Positions 4,633 to 27,972 of a stretch of 47,135 bases of DNA are shown here, one piece after another. Source of the stretch: a virus; IMG/VR virus record IMGVR_UViG_3300023196_001583, positions 1 through 47,135 of that record; one strand, written 5' to 3'. Each line of letters begins with the position of its first letter. The stretch's first letter is position 1. The notes below the pieces were generated by a model that saw nothing but the letters and a program-made list of their open reading frames with translations, searched no databases and had not been told where the DNA came from. A program made the translations under genes and the position numbers.

Positions 4633-7600
4633 ATGGCAAATGGATTCGATAGCGCTTCCCAATGGGAACGCGCAGCAGAGATAATTAGGTCTAGAGATAC
4701 TGTTCCTGGATTCAATCCAGACTTAATCGGCCCCCGAATTACTAGACAAAATAAGCATAAAGTAGCTAGAGACTTTGCTAGGAAGATTGCTTTAGAGGGT
4801 GGCGAGAACAGCATAAAGCCTCGGATCATGGTTTATGATCAGGCAGGTAATGTACATCCATGGGAAAAAGGGGCAATGGCTGCTCTGAATATGGATGAGC
4901 TTTCTCCTGGTAGGGGTTACCAAGGAACCTGGGATCATTGGTTTAATAGTAAAGCAGCTGGTTTTGAGCTTAGAGATGAAGGTATAGATCCAGCAACAGG
5001 TAAGCAAAAGGAAAGTGCTTTCTATACAAATGAAGCACTTGATAAGCTTGCTACTAGTGAGCTCCGCAAGATGCGGGAGCAGTATCCTGACCAGGAACTT
5101 GATTTTACTGACTTCAGGAATGAGGTGAGAGCCTATGCTCTCGCCAATCACTACGTGCAGCCTTGGGTAGAGCAGTTGCAGAGTACAATAGGTGCCAATG
5201 TAGGTACCGAAGGTATGTTTATCTCTAATCATACCGAAGGGCATATCGAAGAAGAAGACTTAGCTGCTTTGCTAAGTACCATGCCGAAGACCGAGCACCG
5301 AAGGTTTTTGAGAGCTCTTGATGACGTTGTCCAGGAAGCAAAGAAGACTTACAAGAGTAAGACTGTTGCTACAGCAGAAGGAATTGCAAAAGGTACTGCG
5401 ACGATTGGTGCTTTGCCACTGACAATTGCTGACGCTTTGGCTTACGAGAAGCCTAGTGGGCAAGAAGATTACGGAAAAGAAACTTTAGAAATGGCTAAGG
5501 CCATTCTTGGTGGTGTCCGAGTAGAAGGGATGGAAGAACCTGAGACCAGTGTTATCGGCCACGTTGGCAAGAATCTTGATGACACCGTAGCCCCTGCCTT
5601 GGTCCACATTGGAAGCATGTGGACAGGTTCTGCGGTAGCTGGAAAAGGTGCTGCTAGTGCAGCTGGTTTTATAAACAAGGTTTTTAGAGGAAAGACTTTA
5701 GCTGGTGGTGTGCAAAAAGGAGCCAGTACAGCTGACAAGATAGCTGCAATAAACTCTCGTAGAAACATGTTAAAGAGCGTTGAGAGTGCGGGCAAGATTG
5801 GTAGCGTTGGCTATTGGACTGCTGCCGAATATGAGCCAATGCAAAAAGAGCTAGTACAAATGGGCATGGACCCTACGTCAGCTGCTCTTACAGCTTTACC
5901 TGCTTCTATAGCCATAGCTTTAGTTGAGCGTCAACAGTTTCTGCAAGCAACAAAGTTAGCAGATGAAACACATTCTGGATTGGTAAAGGCATTACATGAA
6001 TCTCGGAAGGGTAGGCTTAAAAGACGTTGGGATGATGTTGTTGATGTTGCAAGACAAATGCCACGATCTGTTGCTGTCCAAACAACTGAAGAAATGGTTC
6101 AGTGGGGTATTGGTGAAACTACAAAGTATCTAGCTGGGTTAGCAGAGGGTGTCGAATACGATAAGACATCTAAGGATGTAGGCGATGAGTTCGTAAAGGA
6201 ACTCATCGGTTCAGGAAGTGCTTTAGCATTTCTTTCAGCTGGTATGGGAGCTAGAGGCCGTATCGGTGTACGGCGTGGCGAAAATCAGCTCATGAAAGAA
6301 TTCATGGAGAAAAGAGCTGGCGAAATAGAAGTAGGAGAAGTTTGGGCAGACTCATATATCCAAGATCTGGAAGACACCCTCCTGTCCCAGGAACACATAG
6401 CTCCTGAAGACGCTGCTACTATGCTGGGTATTAGTGAGCAAGAGTTAGATGATCTAAGAGACCAGGGTATCTTGGATTATGAAACAGATGTCAACGCAGC
6501 TATTGCTGCTGAAAATCTAAAAGAAGCCAAAAGGAAGCTTGCTCAAGCTGGCGATAACATTATTGATCAAGAAGTTGCTATGGAAGAAATAGCAGCTGCT
6601 CAGGCTGAAATTGAAGATGCTAGTATTACGTATCGCCGTGAAGACATATACAAATTTGCAACAGAATCAGGAACAGAGATAAGCCCTGAATACGATTTGG
6701 ATTTAGGTGACGTTGAATCTGTCCTTGATTGGTTGGAGAACCCGTCTACAACACATTCAGGCATGGCTGGTGTGACAATGTCAGACTTTGACATATTGAT
6801 GCCAGATGGCACCTCCAAGACATTCAATCTGCCTATCTCCAGACTTCTTGATACACCTACAGCACGTAGGGCGTTCCGCAAGCGATTGTTAGACTCTGAA
6901 AGAAACCCTTCTATTTATAAAGCCTTTGGTCAAAGGCTTGTTAACTTGGAGCTAAAAGAAAAGCAGGCAGAGCAGTTTAAGCAGAAGATGCAGCCTGTTG
7001 TCGATGTGTTCATGAAGCATGTCGATAGAGATGGAACTCTTGTCAATGAATTCTTACAGCTTCTAGAACAAGAGCCTACCAGATCCCAGTTCAACAAATT
7101 TCTTATTGCTAGAAATGCGTTTAACAACGATGGTTCTCTTAACATGGAAACTCCAGAGGCTCAGTTATTAACTGAACTTATGGAATCCATGGGGACTGGT
7201 ATGGTTCAGCAATGGTCTGATGATTACCTTCAAGACCTGGGTGTTGAATCAACTATCAGTTACCAGGGTGGTGGGGAGTTCCTACCTCCCCACCAACTGA
7301 TGACAATGGATGAGCAGAACTTTAGAGGATGGGTTCTGGCTAATGGTGGTTCTGACGGAATGATATCAACAATGTCTCGTGAAGGCATTATCAACCGTCT
7401 GCTAGGACAAACTTCTCAAAGGTTAGTTGCTACCCAGAAGAAATTCCTTGTTCCTACCAACCTTGAGAAGCTGGGTATAAACAGCCAGGATCAACGTAAT
7501 TCGTTTATCGAAATGCTTACAGATGGAATGAACGAACATGCTCGCAACGAGGCATTAAAAGATGTCAAGATGCAGGTTTTGTCTATGGCTCAGTTAAAAA

Positions 7601-10600
7601 GGGAAGGGTTACTGGATAATGTCGCTGGTGCTTTAGTTGATCTTGAAGAGAGAATGAAACTCGCTAAGACATCTGAAGAACGTATTAACATAGACGCTGA
7701 CATTAAGACATTGTTTGATCAGTTGAACCGTATTGCGGAGCGTCCATTAGATTCTCAGTTTAGGACTATACGACTTGATAAGTCGGGTGAACCAATTGTT
7801 CTTCAGATAGCAGAAGACATTGGGACTATGCCTTGGGAAAACTACATCAAGATTAAGCAAGCTAAAGGTGAGGAGATCCCTGATTTCCTTAGCAATGAGC
7901 TTCAAAGAATGTACCTAAGGAAGAAGTTTAACGGTGAACAAGTGCCTGATTGGTTGGATGCTCAGTTCAATCCTAACACAGCCGTTCCTGACGTTAGGCC
8001 AGCACCAATAAAGCGTTACCCTATATCCGAAGCCTGGATAGAGAAGGTGATCGACAGGGTTCAAGCTCATTTAGATTCCCCAGAAGCCAGGTATTTGACT
8101 GCTGCCCAGGAGGATGAGCTGTACGAATACATGTACACAGCACGTAGAGGAGCAGATCCCGATGACGTTTTGTGGGCACAGGAGAACTTAACTGATTTTG
8201 TAAGTAAGCTTGATAAGGGTGAGAAGTACCTTCCTAAATACCGTGATGAATGGGACTCAAGTGCTGGAGAAGTAAAACGAGCCAGGAGAATGGGCGAAAA
8301 CTTCAAGCGTCTCATTGAAGATGGGATACTTGAAGACCCTGATGCATGGTCTCCTGCAATGCTTAAGTACCTTAAACTTAAGCCGGAGCAAGTTCAAAGG
8401 GCTGTTCTCGGGTATAGGCAACGTGTCAATTCGGGTGAAGTTGTTACTGACAACATGCTTGCTGAAGTAATGTATCAGGCGGTAACAGGTGATGGGATAA
8501 ACCTGGATGCGGAAGTCGTAGAGCAGGCCCCTAAGCCTGCTCCTGAAACACCTGATCCTACGTTTGGTAGAGAACAACGTCTAAATATTATAGGCTCCTT
8601 AGAAGGTAGGAATTGGGAATCGATTATTGAAACAGAGTTTCCTGGGAGAAGTATTTTTGATTTGACTACGTCTGAGTTGCAAGGTTTAGGTAATGTACTT
8701 GATAACTATAAAGATACTATTAGCAAAGAGCTTGAAAGCCGTGGTCTAACAGATGAAGTACGTAAAGAGCTTAAGGAAAAAGGAAAGAAAAGAACTGCGG
8801 AAGAGAACAAAGATTACAAGTTCATTAATCGAATGAAAAAGCTTTTTGAAAAGCTTACTCCAGACACGTTTGTTCTCAGAGATGAATACGAAGTTAATTG
8901 GTTAGCAGATATCGATCCAGATTATGTTGCTCCAAACCATCCAAAGCATTTTAAGGGGAAGCCTACTAAAGACGGTAAGGTGCGTCCTAAAATAGGGATT
9001 ATAGTTAACGGTGAGCGAGTTGATGTAGACCACCTGGAAGATGGCTACGACATAGATAACGAAATTGTTGAATTAAAATCCCCGACCAGAATTAAAACAT
9101 TTCATGCCATTGATCTTAGTAATCCCAATGCTCCTGTAAGAACTTTTGATGTTTATCATGGTTACCTGGAATCAGGTAAGATTGAAGGCGTACCTGCTGT
9201 AAGAGTTTATGAAAGAGGTGAGAAAAAACCTTTAAGCCTTGAGTTGATGGACAGTAATATGCTTTCATTTGCTAAGGCAGTACAATCAACAGCTCATGTT
9301 GTTTATGAAGATCTGGGTCTTACCTTTGTGGGTGCTTCTAGCACTGTGACTCCTGAATTCAGAGGTGCGCGATCTGGTGTTAAGAACAGAGCAGTGCGTA
9401 AAAAATACATGCAGCTGCGGCAATTGATGCCTCGTGAAATACGCAATCATATTGATAGTTGGGTATCAAACAACACTAACGATGATGGCATTAAGCTGGC
9501 AATGATGCAGTACCTTCATGATCATTATTACCAGAGGAAATACCAGGAAAATGATGAGCCTCAGTCCTGGGAAGATGTTTACATAACACTGAAGAATGAT
9601 GAAGAGTACTTAGGTGGGCGTGAATTCAAAGACTATCGCCTGGTCCGCATAGCTGTTCCTGATAGTGACGTAAGGTTCAACTGGCAAGTTTACTACAAAG
9701 ACCAGCCCCAGGGTGACCTTATACGTAGTGGATGGGCTTCTGCTAAAGCCATGATATGGAGGCACTGGCGAGATAATGAGCGTGGCAACTACCATTACAA
9801 ACCTGACTTCCTAAACGAAATGAACGACATGCTGAAGGACAATAGTCACTTCATGCGTCAATACAAGAGCATGTTTACATGGAGTGATGACAGGAACACC
9901 GGGGCTTACGATGCAGCTGCTCGTGAACGAAGAGATACTCCTCGCAGGTACGTAAACAAACTACTCATGCGACCTATGGCTAACCTTACAGTTATAGATA
10001 AAGGAGAGAGTAACAACGACGGCGAAAACAACATCCCGCAAGATCCTGATGTATCTCCTACTTTGATTTCTGATGAGTGGTCTAAGAAGACAGATGATGA
10101 GAGAAAGACCGACATGGAGACTGGTGTTGAGCTGGGTGTGTCCCAGCTCATAGCTTCCAATGTAATTGATAGCCGTGATGATGTTCTTAATAGCACTATA
10201 TCTGTATCTTCTGATGGTGGTGAGGCTGTCGTAACATTAAAAGACGGTCGTCATCTTGTTGTTGACAGGACAATGTACGGTCGTCATGGCGACGATGCAT
10301 TCTGGTTTACCGTTAACACCGGTTTGAAAAAGGGTGCTTCTGACAGCGAAAACTACATTGGTAGTGCAACGCTGGCAGGCTACAACCTGCCAGCTGATTG
10401 GTGGGCAGCAACGAAAGAATTCCTAAACGACATCGACAGTCAAAACTTTATGTTTGATGATGACGGAAATCCGTTGTCCGAAAAGAACTATGAAAAGATA
10501 CACAGCAAGATCATTCAGCGTCTTCATGAAGAGGGGTACTCTGAATTTATTTCTGATGAAGTCAAAGCTTATTATGCATCAGAGCTAGGTGAGTCACAGC

Positions 10601-13600
10601 CTCAAGTAAACAATGTTGGTGTCTTAACCAAGCAAGAACATGCGCGCAAGTTTGACCCCGTCGAAATGGACGAGATCACAGCAATGATGGATGATCTCAT
10701 ATTGGAGCAAATTGAAAATGATGAGATCGCTGAAAATGAAGACGACATTATAGACATGTTTGATGAGGGCTTTAATGAGCTCTTTGAGGGTTGGGCTGTT
10801 CAGCTTGGATTAAGTACTGAAGATTACTTAAGTACTTTTCCAGAGAAAGAAGACGCTTTATTAGTTACGGTGGTAGACCTGTATCATGGAATGTACAACG
10901 AGCGTTACACTTCCAGGATTGACGAAGAGCTTGAAGTTCCCCAGGAAGAAGCTGAGCCAGTAGACCAGGATGAGGTTGATGCTTACCAGGTAGAGTTCAA
11001 TAACCCTGAGAACCATGACCTGCTTAAGCTTGCCATTGGACAGGACGAACGCTACAGGAACCCCAAGAACTACTACGAGTACGGGGATGATCTGTATCTC
11101 AGGACAAGGACAGGATCTTCTAAGGATGGAACTATTTCTGTCGGTGACAAGATGCACAGAAATGTCTATGTTACTGCTCCTGCCGTTCTTGAGCTTGATG
11201 TTCCATTTTCTGAAGGAGGAGTTTTCGTTAATCCTCAGAATGATAATAATTATGCTTTGGGTATTGTCAAAAATGTTCATGGCGTACCACAAGAAACTCG
11301 TTTGTATGAGCATAGGGGAATTGGGTCATCAAAAATCTTAGGCTGGGCCAATGTTTACGCTAGTGCTGGAAACGAGCTGTCAATTCTTTGGGGTGAGTAC
11401 GTTGGGCGAACTTCTAGTTCAGTAACTGTCGATGTCTCCAGTATAACTCCAGAGAAGGTCATTCAGTTTTGGGAGCAACTTCCAGATGCATGGAAAACTA
11501 AAGTCGAAGAAGGTTTCAATAAAGCTTTGGGGTATTCTCACGGGTTTATGCACAGCCGTGAAGACAGTGTCGCATCTCTTGACGGTATGAAAAATGCTCT
11601 TCCTATGGGTCTTACTTTTAATCGTAACGAAAGAGCTGAATACCTAAAAAGACTTCAAGATTCTTTTCGGGATAACATTAGTGAAACTTTATCAGAACTA
11701 AACAAGGCAAAAGAAGGATCTGATTCTAAGCAACAAATTGAAGAAGCTGCTCCCGAAGTAGAGTCCGTGGTTCAAGAAGAAGCTGAGCAAATTCCAGAAG
11801 AGTTTGAACTTGCTGAGCAACAGCCTAAACGCAAAAATCGCAAGCTTAAGAAGCATGCGACACGGACAAGCAGAACTGAGAAAAAGGATTCGCCTCCTGA
11901 AGAAGGTGGTCCTATGACACAGCAGAGCTTGTTCTCGTTGGAATCTGAAGGTAGACAAGTCGTTGATGAAGATGGGAATGCTATAGACCTATCTCAGTAT
12001 TCAACCGAAGAGTCTCAGCAAGAGGGTGAGCAGTTTACACACCTTGAGTGGACTAATCTCCCAGGCACTGACAGGGACATCGATCCACGAGCTGCTGAGG
12101 ACTACATTCCAGGTCTTAAGTACATCGGTTACAGTGAAGCCCTTGGTGCTTTTGAGTATGAGCTTGGGGGGGAAACTGTTTGGATTAAGCATGTGAAGTT
12201 TATTCCTTACCAGACAGGAGACGTAGAAGGGTATGGTCAAATGGAAGAATACGACCAGGCTAGAGAAGATACGGGTGTATCGGCTACTGGTGGTATGTTC
12301 CTTAACATGCGATTAGCTGGTGGAGATCAGGTTATCCTGATCTCTGATCTAGGTATGGATGTTTCTCCTGGTGGAAGTAAGACTCTCATTCATGAGATAT
12401 CCCATATGCTCCAAATGGGCGGTCGTTTTGACGATAAGATGCAGGAGTTCATACTTCAAACGGCTATTGAGCAAGGCCGAATGACAGGCAATGAACGCTG
12501 GGATATGATTGTTGAAGCTACAGCAGACGTACTGACTGATGCGTTTAACCAGGAGACCAGACAGCGAAGCAAGTCTGGGGTACTCAGAAAGTTTAGAAAC
12601 TTAGTCCGTAGGCTTGGTCTTATGTGGAACAAGGTTTTGGTTAACAGCGGTCACCGTGAAATGAACCTGGACTATATTATTGACCAGTGGTTCTCAGGCA
12701 AACTTGCCGGTGAGGTTAAGGGACGGGAACAGAGCTATCTAAATAGACTCCGCACCGTACCTTCCCGTTACAGTAGAAACTTCTACGACATAATTGGAGA
12801 CGCTTCAAAAGAAGTTAAAGAAGCTAGGAGTGAACGCCAAAGAACGAAAGCTCAAGGTCACATCAGAACTGCCCAGGAGAAATTGAAATCTATTCAATGG
12901 GCTGACAACTTCATAGGTCGTCCGATGCAGTGGGGTAAGGGGTTAAAGCATTTATTCAAGACTGCAATGCGATCTCACAACATTGATGACCCTCTCCAGA
13001 GGAACCGGCTTACTAGATTGACTGAACAGAAGGAAGGGTTCTTACAGGAAGTTGACGACCGCATGCAGCGTAACTTTAATGCTATGCGTTCGATTAGAAG
13101 TAAAATAGGAATTGATAAGCTGCCCAAGGCAGTTAAGCAAGCATTGTTTGAGGCCCTCACTGATCCCGCTGCCAGAAATAATTTAGCAACAAAGTTAGCT
13201 AAGGAAATTAAAGATCCTAAAGAGCTAAAGCAAGTTGAAGACCTATTCCATGAATACATGAAACGACTGGATGACGCTCGTCAACACATTGATGAGTTAT
13301 CCAAGCTTCTACTTCAGTATGTACCTGGCATAAATGAAGAGATGAAGTTGGAAATCGACAAGAACATCAATGTTTATGTGACTAGGGCTTATGCTTTATT
13401 CAACAGCCAGGACTATGTAGACATGATTCGTTATTCGGAACGGGGTCGTGAGCTCATGGAAAAAGCGGCTGAGGTTGTTCTTGAAGAGGACAACAAGTCC
13501 ATGGAAGAAGCTGCTAAGAGTAAGGCAATTAGAGATGTGATTGGTGACCCGAACACTCAAGCCTCTAAAGATTACCGAGCATACCGAGCTCAGGTTCGTA

Positions 13601-16104
13601 AAGAGCTTGCTGCTGGTCAACATGCTAACATTGTCAGCAATTTTGGTGGTGATACTAAATTAGCACTTAAGTACTTAGCCGGACAATGGAAAACCAGGTG
13701 GGCTAACAGTCCTGCTGCAAGAAAAATTTGGGAACCTGATTTCAACTCTACTAAGAGAGATATAACTGAAGCCAGGGACATTGTTCAACGCATTATTAAC
13801 GACCACACCAAGAAGGGTGTGGTCGAAAGCGAAGACAATAGCATGCTTGATCGGGGTATTCTCAAGCAACGTAAGGAGCTTGATGAGGTATTCAAGGAGC
13901 TATACGGGGAGATAAAAGACCCAGAAACTGGTTACGCAATCACTGTAAGCAAGATGGGGTCTTTAATATCGACAGCAAAATTCCAGAATGAGATTCTCCT
14001 AGATTCTGTGTTTAGTGATCAGATAAGCGAGAACAGTAGTGAGACCCACCAATTTTCATTCAGTGGTGACAAGTGGGGTGTTCTATCTGAGTCAGGGTAC
14101 TTCTTTACGGAAGAAATGTATGAAGCAATTCAAAATGCATTCAATAAAACCATAGTTGGGCATTGGAAGTCTCGGGGTAACCCGTTTGATGTAACACTAG
14201 CCATGTTAGCTCAAGCAAGTCAGACCACGAAGACTATGTTGACTGTGGCTAATCCAAGAGCACAATCCAGGAACCCATTAGATGCTACTTATCATGCATT
14301 GGTTAATGGTTGGTTCACTTATGATAGTCTCAGAAAAGCTTACATTGTCTCACTGCATCAAACCAAAAGACAACACTCAAGCAAGATTCAACTGCTTACT
14401 GCATTTCCAGTGCACGCATTAGGATTGGCTGTTAGAGCAGTTGACTGGAAGAAGCGTGGAGCCAAAGGAGGTATTGGCAAGAACTGGGCTGAATTCAAAA
14501 GATCTTTCTTTGACGAGTTTGACGAGAACAATAAAGACCTTTATGAGCTAGGAGACATGCTCCTTAGAGAAGGTGTTCTTTCAAATGACCAGTGGAGGAT
14601 AAATGAAAAGGAAATGCAGGAACTTTCGGCAAGCAAGTGGGATAAAGGATTCAAAGGGAGGGCAGAAAAGATGTCCGGTAAATCAGCTCTGCAAGCCACT
14701 ACTCGTACGATTGATCGTGCGTTTACCACAATAACTGACAATAAGATAATGAACTCCCTGAAGGCTTTGTATCGCATGCCTGATGACATGGTAAAGATTA
14801 TGGGGTATCTAAAGGAAAGGGAGCATGAGATAAGAGCTCGCAAGTTAGGGGAGAATAAAAGCGACTCTCAAATAAGAGCTGAGATGTTAGGCATACAGGA
14901 AACGGCAATAAACAATGTCTTGGAGATGACTACAACTTACAGCCGAATAGGTAGGCTTCCAAAAGCAATTGGTAGTACTCCATTTATCGGGTCCTTTGCT
15001 TCTTGGCAATCTAGTTTTTATAGAGCGACGATAGGTAAGTATCTTACTATCGCTAAGGAATTGAAGAGTGATAACCCAGTCAGAAAGAAACGAGGTTTAA
15101 CTAGACTGGCTTCTGGATTGGCAGCTGACATAGGGATGTCGGTCCTATTACGATCCTTGCTTCCAATGATGATGTTTGACGATGACGAAGAAGTAGAAGC
15201 TTACTTGGAGATGCTTCCAGAGTGGCAAAAAGACCACACCATGGTTGTTTTGAAGTGGGGTGATGAAGGTCCAGAGTTTATTGATCTTTCCATGGTAATG
15301 CCTCACCTGGCTTTCGGGGATATTATTTCAGCTGGATACAGACACACCAAAAGGCACGGTCTTGCTGACGGTTTAATGGCTGCTGTATTTGAAGGATTAG
15401 AACCTTATTTGGATGAAGACGTATATTTAAGTAAGCTTGTGGACGTAACATTTAGAGCAGGTCAGCCAAAATACGCAAAGAAAGTTTATGACTCTCTTGA
15501 TAGCACTTGGCATAAGATGAAGAATTCAATTGACCACGTAACCCTGGGGCTTAGATCAGGAGCAAGAGGACCTTTTGTTCCTGGATTCGTTACGGAATCT
15601 CAGCGGTTTATGGAAGCAATGAAAAATGAGGAAACCAGAACAGGTGTGAAGCGTAGTATGCTTGGAGCTTCAATGCGTTGGCTTGCCGGAGTTGAGATGA
15701 CTAGTGTTGACGCTGAAAGGAAGCTAACCCTGAAGGCTTCAGAGTTTAGGTCCAAACTAAAGGTTATCAAGGACGATTTAAGACGTTCTGGATTTAGCGA
15801 AAACTCCGATACTTTCCGTAGGAAGATGATAAAGTTTCGTGATGATAATGCCATGCTGTATGATGAAATGGGGCGTACAGTTTACGCAGCCAGGAAGCTG
15901 GGATTAAGCCTGGACAATATCCAGGATACACTTAGAACCTGGAACGTACCCAAGGACGACATACAAGCCTTTATCAATAGATCCGATAGGAAACCAGTCT
16001 TTAGCGATAAGACTATTGAAGGGATGTTGGACTCTTCTACTTCTCCAGAAGAAAGAGAAGCCAAGTCTGGCATTTTAAGTGAGTATACAGATGAGCAAAA
16101 ATAG
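4633..16104 (+). CDS. Giant 3,823-aa internal virion/ejection-type protein with HEISH metallopeptidase motif
   Basis: A single uninterrupted frame of 3,823 codons, the largest gene here and about a quarter of the genome. The start at 4633 follows a 40-base gap with a weak GAGAG site. Residues about 315-540 contain Gly/Ala-rich, possibly membrane-seeking stretches. Most of the rest is charged and helical. A zinc-metallopeptidase signature HEISH lies at residues 2587-2591, followed 37 residues later by EATAD (Glu2628), a plausible third zinc ligand as in gluzincin-type peptidases. A basic linker (about 2395-2430) precedes this domain. Near residues 3498-3516 a hydrophobic stretch ends in LLPMMMF. 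T7 gp16 occupies this place and carries a transglycosylase; here a peptidase may replace it for envelope passage or head-protein processing. I looked for but did not find RNA polymerase motifs of the N4 virion type. The peptidase call is good; the ejection role is inferred from position. Confidence 0.7.
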   Translation: MANGFDSASQWERAAEIIRSRDTVPGFNPDLIGPRITRQNKHKVARDFARKIALEGGENSIKPRIMVYDQAGNVHPWEKGAMAALNMDELSPGRGYQGTWDHWFNSKAAGFELRDEGIDPATGKQKESAFYTNEALDKLATSELRKMREQYPDQELDFTDFRNEVRAYALANHYVQPWVEQLQSTIGANVGTEGMFISNHTEGHIEEEDLAALLSTMPKTEHRRFLRALDDVVQEAKKTYKSKTVATAEGIAKGTATIGALPLTIADALAYEKPSGQEDYGKETLEMAKAILGGVRVEGMEEPETSVIGHVGKNLDDTVAPALVHIGSMWTGSAVAGKGAASAAGFINKVFRGKTLAGGVQKGASTADKIAAINSRRNMLKSVESAGKIGSVGYWTAAEYEPMQKELVQMGMDPTSAALTALPASIAIALVERQQFLQATKLADETHSGLVKALHESRKGRLKRRWDDVVDVARQMPRSVAVQTTEEMVQWGIGETTKYLAGLAEGVEYDKTSKDVGDEFVKELIGSGSALAFLSAGMGARGRIGVRRGENQLMKEFMEKRAGEIEVGEVWADSYIQDLEDTLLSQEHIAPEDAATMLGISEQELDDLRDQGILDYETDVNAAIAAENLKEAKRKLAQAGDNIIDQEVAMEEIAAAQAEIEDASITYRREDIYKFATESGTEISPEYDLDLGDVESVLDWLENPSTTHSGMAGVTMSDFDILMPDGTSKTFNLPISRLLDTPTARRAFRKRLLDSERNPSIYKAFGQRLVNLELKEKQAEQFKQKMQPVVDVFMKHVDRDGTLVNEFLQLLEQEPTRSQFNKFLIARNAFNNDGSLNMETPEAQLLTELMESMGTGMVQQWSDDYLQDLGVESTISYQGGGEFLPPHQLMTMDEQNFRGWVLANGGSDGMISTMSREGIINRLLGQTSQRLVATQKKFLVPTNLEKLGINSQDQRNSFIEMLTDGMNEHARNEALKDVKMQVLSMAQLKREGLLDNVAGALVDLEERMKLAKTSEERINIDADIKTLFDQLNRIAERPLDSQFRTIRLDKSGEPIVLQIAEDIGTMPWENYIKIKQAKGEEIPDFLSNELQRMYLRKKFNGEQVPDWLDAQFNPNTAVPDVRPAPIKRYPISEAWIEKVIDRVQAHLDSPEARYLTAAQEDELYEYMYTARRGADPDDVLWAQENLTDFVSKLDKGEKYLPKYRDEWDSSAGEVKRARRMGENFKRLIEDGILEDPDAWSPAMLKYLKLKPEQVQRAVLGYRQRVNSGEVVTDNMLAEVMYQAVTGDGINLDAEVVEQAPKPAPETPDPTFGREQRLNIIGSLEGRNWESIIETEFPGRSIFDLTTSELQGLGNVLDNYKDTISKELESRGLTDEVRKELKEKGKKRTAEENKDYKFINRMKKLFEKLTPDTFVLRDEYEVNWLADIDPDYVAPNHPKHFKGKPTKDGKVRPKIGIIVNGERVDVDHLEDGYDIDNEIVELKSPTRIKTFHAIDLSNPNAPVRTFDVYHGYLESGKIEGVPAVRVYERGEKKPLSLELMDSNMLSFAKAVQSTAHVVYEDLGLTFVGASSTVTPEFRGARSGVKNRAVRKKYMQLRQLMPREIRNHIDSWVSNNTNDDGIKLAMMQYLHDHYYQRKYQENDEPQSWEDVYITLKNDEEYLGGREFKDYRLVRIAVPDSDVRFNWQVYYKDQPQGDLIRSGWASAKAMIWRHWRDNERGNYHYKPDFLNEMNDMLKDNSHFMRQYKSMFTWSDDRNTGAYDAAARERRDTPRRYVNKLLMRPMANLTVIDKGESNNDGENNIPQDPDVSPTLISDEWSKKTDDERKTDMETGVELGVSQLIASNVIDSRDDVLNSTISVSSDGGEAVVTLKDGRHLVVDRTMYGRHGDDAFWFTVNTGLKKGASDSENYIGSATLAGYNLPADWWAATKEFLNDIDSQNFMFDDDGNPLSEKNYEKIHSKIIQRLHEEGYSEFISDEVKAYYASELGESQPQVNNVGVLTKQEHARKFDPVEMDEITAMMDDLILEQIENDEIAENEDDIIDMFDEGFNELFEGWAVQLGLSTEDYLSTFPEKEDALLVTVVDLYHGMYNERYTSRIDEELEVPQEEAEPVDQDEVDAYQVEFNNPENHDLLKLAIGQDERYRNPKNYYEYGDDLYLRTRTGSSKDGTISVGDKMHRNVYVTAPAVLELDVPFSEGGVFVNPQNDNNYALGIVKNVHGVPQETRLYEHRGIGSSKILGWANVYASAGNELSILWGEYVGRTSSSVTVDVSSITPEKVIQFWEQLPDAWKTKVEEGFNKALGYSHGFMHSREDSVASLDGMKNALPMGLTFNRNERAEYLKRLQDSFRDNISETLSELNKAKEGSDSKQQIEEAAPEVESVVQEEAEQIPEEFELAEQQPKRKNRKLKKHATRTSRTEKKDSPPEEGGPMTQQSLFSLESEGRQVVDEDGNAIDLSQYSTEESQQEGEQFTHLEWTNLPGTDRDIDPRAAEDYIPGLKYIGYSEALGAFEYELGGETVWIKHVKFIPYQTGDVEGYGQMEEYDQAREDTGVSATGGMFLNMRLAGGDQVILISDLGMDVSPGGSKTLIHEISHMLQMGGRFDDKMQEFILQTAIEQGRMTGNERWDMIVEATADVLTDAFNQETRQRSKSGVLRKFRNLVRRLGLMWNKVLVNSGHREMNLDYIIDQWFSGKLAGEVKGREQSYLNRLRTVPSRYSRNFYDIIGDASKEVKEARSERQRTKAQGHIRTAQEKLKSIQWADNFIGRPMQWGKGLKHLFKTAMRSHNIDDPLQRNRLTRLTEQKEGFLQEVDDRMQRNFNAMRSIRSKIGIDKLPKAVKQALFEALTDPAARNNLATKLAKEIKDPKELKQVEDLFHEYMKRLDDARQHIDELSKLLLQYVPGINEEMKLEIDKNINVYVTRAYALFNSQDYVDMIRYSERGRELMEKAAEVVLEEDNKSMEEAAKSKAIRDVIGDPNTQASKDYRAYRAQVRKELAAGQHANIVSNFGGDTKLALKYLAGQWKTRWANSPAARKIWEPDFNSTKRDITEARDIVQRIINDHTKKGVVESEDNSMLDRGILKQRKELDEVFKELYGEIKDPETGYAITVSKMGSLISTAKFQNEILLDSVFSDQISENSSETHQFSFSGDKWGVLSESGYFFTEEMYEAIQNAFNKTIVGHWKSRGNPFDVTLAMLAQASQTTKTMLTVANPRAQSRNPLDATYHALVNGWFTYDSLRKAYIVSLHQTKRQHSSKIQLLTAFPVHALGLAVRAVDWKKRGAKGGIGKNWAEFKRSFFDEFDENNKDLYELGDMLLREGVLSNDQWRINEKEMQELSASKWDKGFKGRAEKMSGKSALQATTRTIDRAFTTITDNKIMNSLKALYRMPDDMVKIMGYLKEREHEIRARKLGENKSDSQIRAEMLGIQETAINNVLEMTTTYSRIGRLPKAIGSTPFIGSFASWQSSFYRATIGKYLTIAKELKSDNPVRKKRGLTRLASGLAADIGMSVLLRSLLPMMMFDDDEEVEAYLEMLPEWQKDHTMVVLKWGDEGPEFIDLSMVMPHLAFGDIISAGYRHTKRHGLADGLMAAVFEGLEPYLDEDVYLSKLVDVTFRAGQPKYAKKVYDSLDSTWHKMKNSIDHVTLGLRSGARGPFVPGFVTESQRFMEAMKNEETRTGVKRSMLGASMRWLAGVEMTSVDAERKLTLKASEFRSKLKVIKDDLRRSGFSENSDTFRRKMIKFRDDNAMLYDEMGRTVYAARKLGLSLDNIQDTLRTWNVPKDDIQAFINRSDRKPVFSDKTIEGMLDSSTSPEEREAKSGILSEYTDEQK
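6183..6208. repeat. Intragenic perfect 10-bp stem-loop
   Basis: Arms 6183-6192 and 6199-6208 are perfect inverted repeats around a 6-base loop, inside the 3,823-aa gene. No T-run follows, so it is not a typical terminator. Confidence 0.85.
7269..7295. repeat. Intragenic perfect 10-bp stem-loop
   Basis: Arms 7269-7278 and 7286-7295 pair perfectly around a 7-base loop. It is GC-rich and lies inside the 3,823-aa gene. Confidence 0.85.
10128..10150. repeat. Intragenic perfect 9-bp stem-loop
   Basis: Arms 10128-10136 and 10142-10150 pair perfectly around TGTGT, inside the 3,823-aa gene. Confidence 0.85.
10371..10394. repeat. Intragenic perfect 9-bp stem-loop
   Basis: Arms 10371-10379 (GCTGGCAGG) and 10386-10394 pair perfectly around a 6-base loop, inside the 3,823-aa gene. 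Confidence 0.85.
12323..12344. repeat. Intragenic perfect 9-bp stem-loop
   Basis: Arms 12323-12331 (GAGATCAGG) and 12336-12344 pair perfectly around TTAT. It lies about 50 bases upstream of the HEISH codons. Confidence 0.85.
13800..13825. repeat. Intragenic perfect 10-bp stem-loop
   Basis: Arms 13800-13809 (CGACCACACC) and 13816-13825 pair perfectly around AAGAAG, inside the 3,823-aa gene. Confidence 0.85.
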
Positions 16105-19034: not shown

Positions 19035-19317
19035 AAAATTCCTCTGCACTCATAGATGAGTTTTCAAAAAGTGTTTTTATTATCGGTACACTGGCTTCGT
19101 AATCAGTCCTGCCGACATATCGCCTGCAAGCTTCTTCCAAAGTCCAAGACTCTTTAATTTGTGTTGAGACCCGGCGAATCCGTTCGTCCATGATCTCAAT
19201 AGCTTCAGGTAACTCCCACCTCAAATGTTCAATGGCCCAATCTTCTAGTGGGTCATCTACATCTGATGTGAGGTACCATTGTTTTAAGCTGGCCTTTACA
19301 TATGATCCTATACGCAT
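19024..19317 (-). CDS. Hypothetical early protein
   Basis: A 97-residue protein whose ATG overlaps the helicase stop in a TGATG joint, so translation is probably coupled. It is acidic and helical with a WTLEEACRRYVG stretch; no motif was recognised. It lies between the helicase and the resolvase-like gene, which suggests a replication or recombination accessory role, but this is inference from position only. Confidence 0.6.
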   Translation of the reverse strand: MRIGSYVKASLKQWYLTSDVDDPLEDWAIEHLRWELPEAIEIMDERIRRVSTQIKESWTLEEACRRYVGRTDYEASVPIIKTLFENSSMSAEEFYDQ

Positions 19318-21038
19318 CAATAAAACCGTTGCTCCGAAGATTCAAATCGCAGGTGAAGCTTCTGCTTCTTTACGGGACCGTTACGTCTTTTAGCAACGTG
19401 TACATCGTACCTGCGTGGGTTGTCAGAATTATTGTCTTTACCATAATTCCAACCGAACAGTATTAGGTCGGCATCCTGCTCTAACTGTCCTGATTCCCTT
19501 AAGTCTGACCCTTGAAATTCTACATTATCCCTCTTCTCCACCTCTCGGGAAACCTGACAAAGTGCAAGAATTCCGATGTTGTAGTCTCGGGCACATCCTT
19601 TGATGCGTTGTGAAATCTCTGTGACAGTTTCATATCTTCCGCTTGATGTTGACGAGCGTAGAAGTTGAAGATAATCGATAGCAACGAGTTGTACCCCTTT
19701 GTTTTCGACGTAGGACTTGATGTTAGTTTCAACATCTTCAATACTTCCAACTGGTCGGTAAAAGAGCTTCCCCTTATCCTTCCAGTATTCCTCAATCTTC
19801 TCCATGATCTCATTCTTATTTTCCTCCCAATAAGCTTCGTCTTCAGGAAAGCCATTCATAACAACTCTCCTACCAATTTCCCTCGCTGACATTTCAGCAT
19901 TCAACATTAAGCAATTGATGTTGTTTTGAGCCTGATAGATCAGCCATTGCAAAGCCAGAGCTGACTTACCATGGCCAGGGCGAGCTGCAATGATTGCCAC
20001 TTCCCCTGGACCAACACCATCAATTGAGTAGTCAACGGCAGCTATACCGCTGCCGAAGTAATGGTTAGCACCAACACTCTTAAGGAATACGTTGGCACAA
20101 TCTACCACGGTTTCTGACGACTGTTCGCTTTCGCTACTGAGTCTATTACGTACACTATCATAAGCATTGTTAATAACAGTACTAAGCCAAACATCGTTAT
20201 CACCTTTGTCGTACCCCTCCTTCTCGCACCAGTGTCTCAAGGTGCTCTTGATGACATCGGTGTGCACTCGCTGGTAGACCAGCTCGCAGGCTATGTAGAA
20301 TACACTGGCACTTGTAGACCTGTCCCCGTCAAACGAGTCGTTAAACATCCTGTGCCACTTCCCGTACAAACGGCTGTCTTGGTTCTTGATCATGCTTGCG
20401 ATCTCACCAGGAAGCCCGTATTCATCCTTTACAGGAGGCACCAATGAGGTGCCGAACCTGATACAGGAAGCTTCTATCTCACTCCGATAGGTCCACGTTG
20501 GTGTGAATCGATCAAGCTCTTCCCACGACTCGTTAACATCTACGAACCTACTCTTGTTCCAGTAGGGTAGTCGCACTAGGTTCCCCAGACCCTTACCAGA
20601 TAGCTTATCCTGTCTAGGGTAGATCTCCTTAAACTTCTGATCTACCTTTTTGGAAACACCCGTCCAAAACTTCCTAATGAGCCATGCTGGTATAGGGTCC
20701 TCAAAGAACAGCCATATGTGAGCCCCTGAGCCGCTTGACGACACTTCAGCTGTCGGTGTGTATCCTTCCGACTCTAAGAAGTTGAAGACCTTCTGAGCAT
20801 CCTCACGCCATTCAGGATTGGGGGCGTCATCATGGTCGTCAAAATCAACGCAGCTGCAATGTACTGTGTTGTCCTTCCGCAGAACATAAAAACCAACACA
20901 AGTATCCCCAGTAAGGTGTAGAGTTCGATAATCCTCAATCGTAATCTCCTTATCCATCGGCCTGAAGTCGTGGGCACAGATATCCTCTCTTCCTTTGAAG
21001 GTGTTTACGACAATTGATTTGTCTAATTCAGATAACAT
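19317..21038 (-). CDS. Primase-helicase: AEP-type primase fused to DnaB-type helicase
   Basis: A 573-residue protein; the ATG at 21038 has a consensus AAGGAG site, better than an in-frame TTG upstream. Residues about 40-165 resemble an archaeo-eukaryotic primase (PrimPol): the metal-binding DFDDH at 65-69, SGSGAHIWLFFE at 102-113 and NLVRLPYW at 153-160. Residues about 240-300 resemble a primase C-terminal helical domain. The C-terminal half is a RecA-fold DnaB-like helicase with Walker A ARPGHGKS (352-359), Walker B AIDYLQLL (453-460), the CQVSR motif (494-498) and DLRESGQLEQDADLI (512-526). It should prime and unwind DNA at the phage fork. Unlike T7 gp4, the primase is not of the TOPRIM type. 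No DNA polymerase gene was recognised nearby. Confidence 0.9.
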   Translation of the reverse strand: MLSELDKSIVVNTFKGREDICAHDFRPMDKEITIEDYRTLHLTGDTCVGFYVLRKDNTVHCSCVDFDDHDDAPNPEWREDAQKVFNFLESEGYTPTAEVSSSGSGAHIWLFFEDPIPAWLIRKFWTGVSKKVDQKFKEIYPRQDKLSGKGLGNLVRLPYWNKSRFVDVNESWEELDRFTPTWTYRSEIEASCIRFGTSLVPPVKDEYGLPGEIASMIKNQDSRLYGKWHRMFNDSFDGDRSTSASVFYIACELVYQRVHTDVIKSTLRHWCEKEGYDKGDNDVWLSTVINNAYDSVRNRLSSESEQSSETVVDCANVFLKSVGANHYFGSGIAAVDYSIDGVGPGEVAIIAARPGHGKSALALQWLIYQAQNNINCLMLNAEMSAREIGRRVVMNGFPEDEAYWEENKNEIMEKIEEYWKDKGKLFYRPVGSIEDVETNIKSYVENKGVQLVAIDYLQLLRSSTSSGRYETVTEISQRIKGCARDYNIGILALCQVSREVEKRDNVEFQGSDLRESGQLEQDADLILFGWNYGKDNNSDNPRRYDVHVAKRRNGPVKKQKLHLRFESSEQRFY

Positions 21039-21051
21039 GTTTTCTCCTTGC

Positions 21052-21086
21052 AAAAAAAAGCACTGGGAGCGTTAACTCCCAGTGCT
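21052..21086 (-). terminator. Rho-independent terminator between SSB and primase-helicase
   Basis: On the minus strand an 11-bp perfect stem (arms 21059-21069 and 21076-21086) around a 6-base loop is followed by a run of eight T. It lies just after the SSB-like gene and just before the helicase ribosome site, so it should reduce helicase expression relative to the recombination genes or create a regulated read-through point. Confidence 0.9.
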
Positions 21087-21105: not shown

Positions 21106-21606
21106 CTAGAACGGTGCGTCACCTGGGTCAGTCGGAGGGGCTGTACCCTGTGAGCCGCCATAGGAAGTCTGGGAGGACTTGAATTTGTCTCCCCAGAGGG
21201 CATCCGCTTCCATTAGAGTGTGCTGATCGATGGCCGTGGGAGCCTGAGCTGCCCGTGGTCGATCTACATTCCACTCTTCACGATCCTTGCCGTTGTAACT
21301 TGACTTGCTGGAAAACCAAGGAGAAATCTTCCCAATCAAGCTCACATGTTGGTTATGTGAAGGATCAAGCTGGGCAGGACTACCTGTAAACCCTACGAAG
21401 GCTAGATCCTCAGCAAAACGGTCAATCGTTTTGTCGGTAAGCGTCATCCACTTCTTCCGTCTTACGCCACCTTCAACGGCTTCTCTGGTGCCATCGGCAT
21501 TCAGTTTAAAGAGCACGTTGAGGTCAAATTCCACCTGATGATTTCCATTGCTGGAAACTGTGAGTCGGTGGCCCGCAATCTCACATTCAAATTTACCTAG
21601 TAACAT
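21106..21606 (-). CDS. Single-stranded-DNA-binding-like protein
   Basis: A 166-residue protein. Residues 1-100 look like a beta-rich OB-type region (EIAGHRLTVSS, VEFDLNVLFKL, HVSLIGKISPWF). A low-complexity Gln/Ser/Gly/Pro linker follows, and it ends DPGDAPF, close to the acidic D-x-PF tail of bacterial and phage SSBs that recruits partner proteins. It starts 3 bases after the Sak4-like gene and is followed by a strong terminator. The neighbours (exonuclease, RecA-type ATPase, primase-helicase) fit an SSB for replication and recombination. The OB fold is inferred from pattern. Confidence 0.7.
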   Translation of the reverse strand: MLLGKFECEIAGHRLTVSSNGNHQVEFDLNVLFKLNADGTREAVEGGVRRKKWMTLTDKTIDRFAEDLAFVGFTGSPAQLDPSHNQHVSLIGKISPWFSSKSSYNGKDREEWNVDRPRAAQAPTAIDQHTLMEADALWGDKFKSSQTSYGGSQGTAPPTDPGDAPF

Positions 21607-21609
21607 GTA

Positions 21610-22404
21610 CTATGCTTCCTTTGAGAATAGTTTAACGAAGTTACGGAATCCCTCAGACGAAGAGGAACCCAAATCAAAAGATGCTGGCAGGCCCATTCTG
21701 TTCTTGGCCTCAAACCCAGCCTCAGGTTCGCAGTAGGCGACACGTTTCTTGCCTCCTTTTGCCTTACCGCTTGAATCGACAGTGGTGAAGAAATTGAAAA
21801 ACAGTACTGCGTCAGCCCACTGTCGGATGACATCACTGTTGTCCTTGTGAAGATCGATCTTGTAAGACTGGTAGTCTTCGCCAAGAGGGTTGCGTTCTTT
21901 AGCCAGACGACTGTGTGCTAGGCACACGATGGTCATCCCCTTCTCAACACGCAATCGATCAAGTTTAATCGTCAGCTCCTTGAACACGTTCGCACAAGCA
22001 GCGTAACCACGGTGGTATGCCATGAAGCTGGCATGGTCACCATTGAACTGGGTATCCAGAACATGTTCCAGACACAGCTCTTCAAAGCCATTAAGGCAAT
22101 CAACAACGACTGTCTTAAAGTCATGCTCTGCTGTAGCCAGCTCTTCTAGACATCCCATGAATTCAGCCCAAGTGCTAAACGCAGGTAGGTGGCTAGTCTC
22201 ACCCAGTTGACCACTTGAGATCAGGGTTTCAAGACCTGTCTCATTGCGGCTCATTAGGTAGAGAGGATTGGTCATTTCGGCAGGGAATGATGTCTTCCCA
22301 ACGCCCTCACGACCATAAATAACGATTCGGTAAGGTAGCTTTTCGGCTTTGGCCTTTACCTTGGTCAGAATGCTTCCAATAGCATTAGCTGATACTTTGT
22401 TCAT
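21610..22404 (-). CDS. Sak4-like RecA-fold ATPase (recombinase)
   Basis: A 264-residue protein with Walker A GREGVGKTS at residues 31-39 and Walker B KTVVVDCLNGFEE at about 97-109, followed by IVCLAHSRLA as a sensor-like strand. The length and layout match the AAA_24/Sak4 group, short RecA-like proteins that promote single-strand annealing together with a phage SSB. It overlaps the permuted nuclease gene by 20 bases and has a good AAAGGAAG site. Nuclease, ATPase and SSB in a row make a complete recombination cassette. Confidence 0.85.
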   Translation of the reverse strand: MNKVSANAIGSILTKVKAKAEKLPYRIVIYGREGVGKTSFPAEMTNPLYLMSRNETGLETLISSGQLGETSHLPAFSTWAEFMGCLEELATAEHDFKTVVVDCLNGFEELCLEHVLDTQFNGDHASFMAYHRGYAACANVFKELTIKLDRLRVEKGMTIVCLAHSRLAKERNPLGEDYQSYKIDLHKDNSDVIRQWADAVLFFNFFTTVDSSGKAKGGKKRVAYCEPEAGFEAKNRMGLPASFDLGSSSSEGFRNFVKLFSKEA

Positions 22405-23371
22405 GAACTTCTTCCTTTTTAGTAGAATTCCAAAATGACTCTAAGCACTCATGAAATGCAGAGCCAAATGTGAGAGCTAACGGTTGCTCTTCACGATCTC
22501 TTTCGATACGTTCGACGTATCGGTAGTAGTACTTTCGGCGACACTCCATGAAGGTGTGTATGCCGGATGTACTCAAGTTAAATTCACCAGACAGATCAGA
22601 ACCTTTTCGTTCCCTCCAAGATCCGTCATCAGGTCTGGATGTCCCACAGCAAATGTTAATGTATTCGCATGGGGTATTGAACTTAGAGCATGCACTGCTG
22701 TTCTGGTACCAGCTACCGTTTACACGGGCATCCCTGATGTGATCAGCGATTGTGTTTAACGTCAGATAGGTCTCTTCACATTGTGCAGTAGTTCGGCGAA
22801 GGTTCCCGTGACGCAGATAGTATTTATCTGGGTCAGCTAGGATCTCCGAGAACAGGCGTGCCTCGTACAGACCAGGCGTTTCCACATCACCAACATCTAC
22901 TGCTGGTATAGGGATTTTCAACATAAGGTTGCAATAGTGCCCGACCTGCAATTCTTCTATATCCGCTTTCTTCAGCTTCCTCGGACGAATCCGTGGCTTG
23001 TGAACAACATCGTATATAGTTTGCTCTAACTCTTCCTCCATGAAGAGCTGAGCCATGTGGTAGGCAGATAGCTGCAAATCATAAGCCAGCTTTTTGAAGT
23101 ATGGCTTATTCAGATCTCCTAGATCGTTCACAGTAGTCTTATGCTCCAGCATAACAAGACCGTGATTATCGTCCGTGATCAGCGTATCTATCTTACCAAC
23201 AAATACATAAGGTTTTACCTTCAGTTCAATTTCAAAGTTACGCTCTACGTCAACTGCGTACCATGTGTCGGCAGCATATCGATAGAAGTAACCGAGAACA
23301 AGTGCACGAAGCTTAGCTTTGTCATACTCTTCCATCTTGTAGTTTGAAATAGCGGCTAAGTGCTTACTCAT
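22385..23371 (-). CDS. RecB/Cas4-type exonuclease with circularly permuted motif order
   Basis: A 328-residue protein from the ATG at 23371; a longer start at 23407 would lie deeper in the HTH gene. The catalytic core comes first: VGKIDTL with Asp62, LEHKTT with Glu76 and Lys78, and the Gln-x3-Tyr motif DLQLSAY (Gln100, Tyr104). Cys228, Cys235 and Cys241 then form a C-terminal cluster of the iron-sulphur nuclease kind. The segment that normally opens the family, S.. .F..C..KYYYRY followed by GSAFH, lies at the very end: Cys277, KYYYRY 280-285, GSAFH 303-307. All key residues are present, but motif I is moved from the N to the C terminus. It probably resects DNA ends for the downstream Sak4-like protein. 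Confidence 0.8.
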   Translation of the reverse strand: MSKHLAAISNYKMEEYDKAKLRALVLGYFYRYAADTWYAVDVERNFEIELKVKPYVFVGKIDTLITDDNHGLVMLEHKTTVNDLGDLNKPYFKKLAYDLQLSAYHMAQLFMEEELEQTIYDVVHKPRIRPRKLKKADIEELQVGHYCNLMLKIPIPAVDVGDVETPGLYEARLFSEILADPDKYYLRHGNLRRTTAQCEETYLTLNTIADHIRDARVNGSWYQNSSACSKFNTPCEYINICCGTSRPDDGSWRERKGSDLSGEFNLSTSGIHTFMECRRKYYYRYVERIERDREEQPLALTFGSAFHECLESFWNSTKKEEVHEQSIS

Positions 23372-23552
23372 CCGATGACACCTCGTTCTTGTTAATGTAC
23401 TCTTCAAGAGCCGATTTAGTTGTCATCCAAGTCTTGCCAATCTTTCTGGCATCCAATCCTTTGTTGACCCAGTTACGGATCGACTGTGGAGTTTTGTGTA
23501 GAAGCTTTGCAGCTTCAGAGATAGTTATCTTATCTGGATCAAAGATATCCAT
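23364..23552 (-). CDS. Small helix-turn-helix (excisionase/MerR-like) DNA-binding protein
   Basis: A 62-residue protein from the ATG at 23552, preceded by AAGGAAGG. The sequence ITISEAAKLLHKTPQSIRNW followed by a Lys/Gly wing and TKSALEEYI fits the winged HTH_17/excisionase family, which recognises short DNA sites. With no integrase seen, a transcription-regulator role is more likely than excision. It heads the nuclease-Sak4-SSB cluster behind a candidate promoter and overlaps the nuclease start by 8 bases. Confidence 0.8.
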   Translation of the reverse strand: MDIFDPDKITISEAAKLLHKTPQSIRNWVNKGLDARKIGKTWMTTKSALEEYINKNEVSSDE

Positions 23553-23604
23553 CGAACCTTCCTTTCCCAACTAGCTGTAGTAGTTGTAGTAGTTGTATTT
23601 AGCG

Positions 23605-27207: not shown

Positions 27208-27972
27208 TTATGCATGCCAAGGGTATATGACAACGTCAACGGAAGGATTCGCACAGTCTGTACACGATCCACACAACTCGCCTTGTCGTTTCTTCCGTCT
27301 AGGTCGTTCACTTGCCACGGCGAAGGCTTCACGGGTTGCACTGCAAACGCTGACAGTGTTTCCGTTATCCCTTAGACATTGCGCGACCTGTTCAGCAGCG
27401 GCTAGATTATTTTTATTGCCTTGTCCCTTTTTACCGACAATCACGGCACGGGCACCAGTTGAGCGGCTGACCGTACTGTTCCCGTTAAACGATTCAATAT
27501 CATGCAACGGGGGCATGCTTTCACGTATTACGCATAGGTCACCCAATTGACGCCGGTGTTGCCTTGCTTTCTCTTTACCTTGTACCGGCCAATGAACGGG
27601 GATTCCAGCATCATTGGCAACGGTCAAAAGCTTACGGGCTGCGGCATAGTACCTACGGTGAATCTTCTTATCCTTCAAGAATTTAACCGTAGGAGATGCG
27701 CCAAGTGGGTTGATCCTCAACCACGGTATTTCATAGCCGCATAGAATAAGCTGCTCCAGTTCAAGTCGGGCAGCGTCCAGCGTTGCGGCTACGTCTAAGA
27801 TCTTTAACCGCTTATTGTGTGCCTGCTTGATGTACTGCCTATGCTTATAAAGCGTTAGTACGTAGCAGTCCCGCACTTTACAACCAGCACACGCGCCAGC
27901 ATGGCCAGCGGGAAGTAGGCTTACGCCTACACTCCCCCTTTTAAACTTCTGTATCTCTTGTAATACCTTCAC
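27208..27972 (-). CDS. Cys-rich gp88-like protein
   Basis: A 254-residue protein with a GTG start at 27972 and TAGGAG upstream. It carries an N-terminal Cys cluster (Cys28, Cys31, Cys36 in CAGCKVRDCY) and a C-terminal one (CGSCTDC) before a VVIYPWHA end. Between them are IPWLRINPLGASP, VHWPVQG and a basic Ser/Gly-rich region. This layout recalls the phage gene-product-88 family: an N-terminal C..C..CY, a central barrel-like domain and C-terminal Cys pairs. The family function is unknown; metal or iron-sulphur binding is likely. It is expressed early, second in the leftward block. Confidence 0.5.
   Translation of the reverse strand: MKVLQEIQKFKRGSVGVSLLPAGHAGACAGCKVRDCYVLTLYKHRQYIKQAHNKRLKILDVAATLDAARLELEQLILCGYEIPWLRINPLGASPTVKFLKDKKIHRRYYAAARKLLTVANDAGIPVHWPVQGKEKARQHRRQLGDLCVIRESMPPLHDIESFNGNSTVSRSTGARAVIVGKKGQGNKNNLAAAEQVAQCLRDNGNTVSVCSATREAFAVASERPRRKKRQGELCGSCTDCANPSVDVVIYPWHA

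Follow-up and report, generated by a model that had tools for sequence, protein, structure and literature searches.

The nuclease gene and its surroundings

The window (the whole stretch of viral DNA that was analysed, 47,135 nucleotides) carries a phage recombination-replication module in which an open 328-codon frame on the minus strand, read from 23371 down to 22385, is surrounded by a small HTH gene, a Sak4-like annealing protein, a probable SSB, a primase-helicase and a RusA-like resolvase (Table 1). The tail codons of the nuclease hold a Shine-Dalgarno-like AAGGAAG ahead of the Sak4 start. The protein in the SSB slot gave no PHROG match, and it may belong to a diverged SSB family, its counterpart in the Tunturi phages carrying an SSB annotation. 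One PHROG of 598 positions, phrog_8097, matched both a segment of the nuclease (positions 3-50, E 0.13) and Sak4 (positions 264-402), which suggests that natural nuclease-Sak4 fusions occur in other phages. Elsewhere in the window, a 3823-aa ORF (4633-16104, plus strand) that makes up roughly one quarter of the 47-kb phage had no Pfam match, and the two large ORFs that precede it (240-2678 and 2685-4592) had no match in Pfam or PHROG. Likewise, a 254-aa Cys-rich protein (27208-27972, minus strand), with GACAGCKVRDCYV near its start and a second Cys cluster at its end, matched neither Pfam nor PHROG.

Table 1. Features of the nuclease gene and of the genes next to it (positions are those of the window)
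Feature	Position	Strand	Basis or remark
RecB/Cas4-type PD-(D/E)XK nuclease, probably circularly permuted, 328 aa	22385..23371	-	
Core, residues 1-250 (helices, catalytic sheet, Q-x3-Y, three-Cys cluster)	22622..23371	-	C-terminal in canonical relatives; phrog_1218 97-329; model 1-241 ~ AdnA 843-1039, 1-243 ~ ACE1 80-265
Predicted catalytic Asp62 and Glu76-His-Lys78	23138..23188	-	D, K and E/D each 54/54 in the permuted set
Gln100-x3-Tyr104	23060..23074	-	56/56 invariant
Cys228/235/241, three ligands of a predicted Fe-S cluster	22649..22690	-	56/56 invariant
Linker, residues 242-264, between the former C- and N-terminal ends (HxEL strand followed by the beginning of the LTNS strand)	22580..22648	-	Permuted compared with canonical proteins
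Segment 265-318, N-terminal in canonical relatives and C-terminal here (Cys277, KYYYRY, GSAFH)	22418..22579	-	PF12705 2-61; canonical HMM 7-63
Disordered tail, residues 317-328	22388..22423	-	pLDDT under 50 for 323-328
HTH/excisionase-like gene upstream	23364..23570	-	phrog_2655; its end overlaps the nuclease start
Sak4-like ssDNA annealing protein	21610..22404	-	phrog_124, 2.3e-38; 20-base overlap with the nuclease gene
Probable SSB	21106..21606	-	By position; homologous slot annotated SSB in Tunturi phages
Primase / DnaB-like helicase	19317..21053	-	phrog_19, phrog_21866

Motif order, conservation and profile matches

An earlier note on this DNA had read the product as a RecB/Cas4-like nuclease with all its catalytic and cluster residues present in a swapped order, and the translated protein bears this out. 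Asp62, Glu76-His77-Lys78, Gln100 and Tyr104, Cys228, Cys235 and Cys241, and only then Cys277, KYYYRY (280-285) and GSAFH (303-307), each stand where the note had placed them. The one detail to be amended is the notation Cys277-KYYYRY, because both motifs are present in that order, but two residues (RR) sit between them. The residues of a RecB-type PD-(D/E)XK enzyme (Asp, Glu-x-Lys, Gln-x3-Tyr and the metal-site His) are all found, and they are invariant in the permuted relatives except that Glu and Asp interchange. In an alignment of 56 permuted proteins, all four Cys, Gly303, the metal-site His307, Gln and Tyr are present in 56 of 56 rows; two rows are cut before the catalytic residues can be read, and Asp, Glu/Asp, His and Lys are kept in the other 54 of 54. 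This invariance argues for an active, cluster-binding enzyme, as far as can be judged from residues. The possibility that the N-terminal segment had been split off or lost was ruled out: the gene upstream is, as had been claimed, an intact ORF, it encodes an unrelated HTH/excisionase-like protein, and no second copy of the segment was found in any locus.

The homology of the two parts was then analyzed with profiles. PF12705 (PDDEXK_1) matched the window protein as two stretches with 71.1 bits, its cut-off being 22, and its positions 2-61 aligned to residues 266-324. With the exonuclease family phrog_1218 (364 positions, E 2.4e-25), residues 18-241 aligned to positions 97-329, and a second stretch followed in swapped order; other permuted members also gave two stretches (the moved segment falls at positions 6-62 in L020), whereas canonical members gave a single one, positions 4-330. 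A profile of 346 positions built from 44 canonical relatives matched the window protein in two pieces, of 158.5 bits (positions 63-326) and 42.0 bits (7-63), and when the protein sequence was doubled the two merged into one match of 207.9 bits spanning positions 7-326. The best doubled score after the C-terminal segment had been shuffled 200 times was 162.2 bits. Doubling raised the score in all but three of the 56 permuted proteins, those three being cut by contig ends; canonical proteins gained nothing, with the single exception of L085, which has an internal gap. Since the PF12705 score exceeds its cut-off, the phrog_1218 stretches are swapped and the doubling score lies above every shuffled control, chance is excluded, and residues 265-318 are homologous to what stands at the N-terminus in canonical relatives and are not an unrelated domain, an alternative that the earlier note had named as fatal to its reading. 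A practical consequence is that profile searches report permuted nucleases as two broken pieces. The CRISPR Cas4 profile TIGR00372 gave 25.2 bits with the window protein, below its cut-off of 65.

Five scans of viral contigs supplied the related loci, and every ORF in them was classed by the order of its two pieces. The swapped order, which the earlier note had proposed to look for in related phages, recurs in 71 distinct ORFs; another 49 distinct ORFs are canonical, and no ORF with the segment at both ends, nor any other duplicate intermediate, was found among these loci. Two isolated phages of Tunturiibacter (Acidobacteriota) with complete genomes, PP885685 and PP887698, also encode the nuclease in the permuted order, and this putative DNA-end-trimming nuclease is found in many soil and water phages. 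Sak4 lies downstream in 124 of 128 permuted loci and in 76 of 77 canonical ones (at least three of the five loci without it represent one contig that ends within the nuclease gene), so the two orders share one gene slot. Relatives with the segment at the N-terminus do therefore exist, but they form a different lineage and not a corrected assembly of this one. No match was found in plasmids, and a scan of genome contigs returned an AddB-like protein only. Among 150 genomes of one bacterial phylum 41 had a match, nearly all of them to the N-terminal segment alone and none spanning both parts in the permuted order.

A few of the fetched loci carry disruptions. The canonical L064/L196 has an in-frame TAG at 500-502, where its close relative L058 has Tyr, the canonical L073 has an in-frame TAA at 3412-3414, and the permuted L075 is frameshifted at 3368-3492; these are broken copies or sequencing errors. 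On a 94-kb contig (IMGVR_UViG_3300020229_000001; loci L099 and L109) two permuted nuclease genes lie about 63 kb apart, and this contig represents either two phages joined or two modules of one large phage.

Predicted fold, junction and the origin of the rotated order

The AF2 model of the permuted protein, computed with 56 permuted sequences, reached a pLDDT of 93.9 and a pTM of 0.88, and that of a canonical relative 95.9 and 0.89; after rotation, the main secondary-structure elements of the two models are the same. The placement of the moved C-terminal segment in the predicted fold rests on the high pTM and on this order of elements. Against the PDB, the canonical model matched AdnA 790-1039 (Z 16.1), ACE1 2-267 (Z 14.6), AddB 785-1134 (Z 14.3) and Dna2 (Z 11.5), whereas the permuted model matched AdnA 843-1039 with Z 8.7 and ACE1 80-265 with Z 7.8, about half the canonical values. 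It enters the target chains some 50-80 residues late, and its own residues past about 243 stay unaligned. This combination of late start, halved Z and unused tail is what a sequential aligner gives for a chain whose order is rotated. Foldseek on the PDB gave partial, weak matches only (best E 1.1e-3), as expected for such an aligner, and a search of the solved structures by sequence with the permuted protein gave no true match. In BFVD, the best match of the permuted model was A0A6J5NSY1, over the full length and with a TM of 0.83, so that other permuted proteins stand in the database as plain PD-(D/E)XK nucleases.

The junction points in the same direction. In canonical proteins LTNS lies a few residues from the start, and the chain stops a few residues past HxEL, a conserved motif behind the Cys cluster; the permuted linker consists of this canonical C-terminal stretch, HxEL included, and, after a short spacer, of LTNS, HxEL being worn in the window protein's own subclade. 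We infer that this linker is a fossil of the head-to-tail fusion of two copies whose outer parts were then lost. The new termini lie, in the model, at a short turn between helices 298-316 and 2-10, and the matching canonical helices (37-53 and 58-66 in L051) are four residues apart.

The comparison shows that both parts are homologous to those of the canonical nucleases, that active-site and putative cluster-ligand residues are preserved, and that the gene occupies the slot of its canonical relatives. With the swapped order recurring in independent genomes, the true circular permutation proposed in the earlier note is supported, and our best explanation, including the inferred origin, refolding and role, is that this protein arose by natural circular permutation from a phage four-Cys nuclease of the RecB/Cas4 type, with a probability of roughly 0.87. 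A gene duplication or fusion, head to tail, would have been followed by loss of the outer pieces, giving the rotated order, and the permuted chain would refold into the normal RecB-like fold.

Other origins of the same motif order were weighed. We consider it unlikely that the moved segment completes a neighbouring subunit, so that the protein would be an obligate dimer or ring rather than fold in cis: oligomers do occur among Fe-S Cas4 proteins and phage exonucleases, SSO0001 being a decameric Cas4 (PMC4176176), and the AF2 models made here were of monomers only, but all permuted ORFs have a linker of 22-34 residues between the profile ends, the monomer model has high confidence over its whole length (pTM 0.88), and both canonical termini have short strands beside the join. 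A core devoid of its N-terminal segment that captured, at its C-terminus, the segment of another RecB-type nuclease would also give this order, and phages recombine freely; we hold this to be very improbable, because the linker resembles the family's own C-terminus followed by its own N-terminus, and because the profile of the canonical family scores both parts and joins them on doubling. The moved segment has too few residues to give a decisive tree by itself. As for an assembly or gene-calling artefact, one related contig does end within the nuclease gene, but the permuted order is present in 71 distinct ORFs from separate assemblies and in two isolate genomes, and this reading, to which we give practically no weight, was rejected. 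That contig, of 47513 bases and from a near-identical phage (L002 4001-4879 and L003 1-111), both starts and ends within the gene, so its genome is probably circular, with no end repeat in the assembly.

If the protein is a circular permutant, the rotation may have happened once or twice. In a tree with the pieces placed in one register, the permuted proteins fall into clade A (22 rows, with the window and Tunturi proteins) and clade B (24 rows, e.g., L066, L072 and L077), and two independent permutations at the same helix-helix turn are a tentative possibility that would refine the best explanation and not compete with it. The careful tree needs two changes, more than one change occurs in 98% of the bootstrap trees, and 19 canonical rows form the sister group of clade B (96/87). 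Clade B also has a KDGKKWR-type insert in common with the canonical L048 and L051, but this insert is scattered among canonical members and does not decide the number of origins. If the permuted rows are all forced into one group, the cost is 1.7, 7.0 or 7.9 log units according to which columns are used, and a single permuted clade is not rejected by the AU test (p 0.46, 0.36 and 0.30). The data do not tell one origin from two. Two independent permutations at the same turn, if true, would mean that the rotated order is favoured and is not a frozen accident.

Putative role and comparison with known nucleases

Judged from its fold, residues and position, the permuted protein is expected to be an AddB/Cas4-like exonuclease that depends on metal, with the four Cys predicted to bind an Fe-S cluster, and it is likely an end-resection exonuclease that acts with Sak4 and SSB. 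It would degrade DNA from its ends to expose single strands, and these would be used by SSB and Sak4 for annealing recombination during phage replication.

Circular permutation is known to occur in nature, and the RecB/Cas4 nuclease family is known as well. No description of a permuted four-Cys nuclease of this type was found in the literature searched, which left the main superfamily survey (Steczkiewicz 2012, gks382) outside it. Among the closest known proteins are the exonucleases of the Tunturiibacter phages Tunturi_1/2 (XJP11549.1 and XOB77130.1), which have the same permuted order and 28-30% identity to the window protein; they are annotated just as "exonuclease", and PMC11924767 makes no mention of a permutation. 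The Cas4 family, including ACE1 (9iab, 9iac) and SSO0001 (4ic1), has the RecB-like core, Q-x3-Y and four Cys in common with the window protein, but in Cas4 one Cys is N-terminal and three are C-terminal (PMC4176176), whereas here this bracketing layout is replaced by a rotated order in which all four lie within residues 228-277, in the C-terminal third.

The nuclease domains of AddB and AdnA (iron-staple nucleases) match the fold of the models, and their four-Cys pattern, described for AddB in PMC3466216, is alike; they differ in having the canonical order and in being domains within a large helicase-nuclease, whereas the window protein is stand-alone and permuted. In AddB, Cas4 and Dna2-type nucleases the Fe-S cluster is seen as a "staple" that ties the ends of the domain, and there is debate on whether its role is purely structural (PMC3466216, PMC4176176). 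Permuted proteins have those ends linked by the chain itself, yet the four Cys are invariant in 56 sequences, so that the staple idea can be put to a direct test: the Cys should be dispensable here if the cluster did nothing but staple. The permuted nuclease is in this sense a natural experiment on the need for the cluster once the ends are joined. Finally, the canonical exonucleases of phrog_1218 (e.g., L051, L054 and L070) have the same motifs, the four Cys, the slot upstream of Sak4 and the family profile, and they differ in having Cys-KYYYRY-GxxxH first and a single colinear profile match; with both orders in one gene slot, this is a family for studying how permutations arise.
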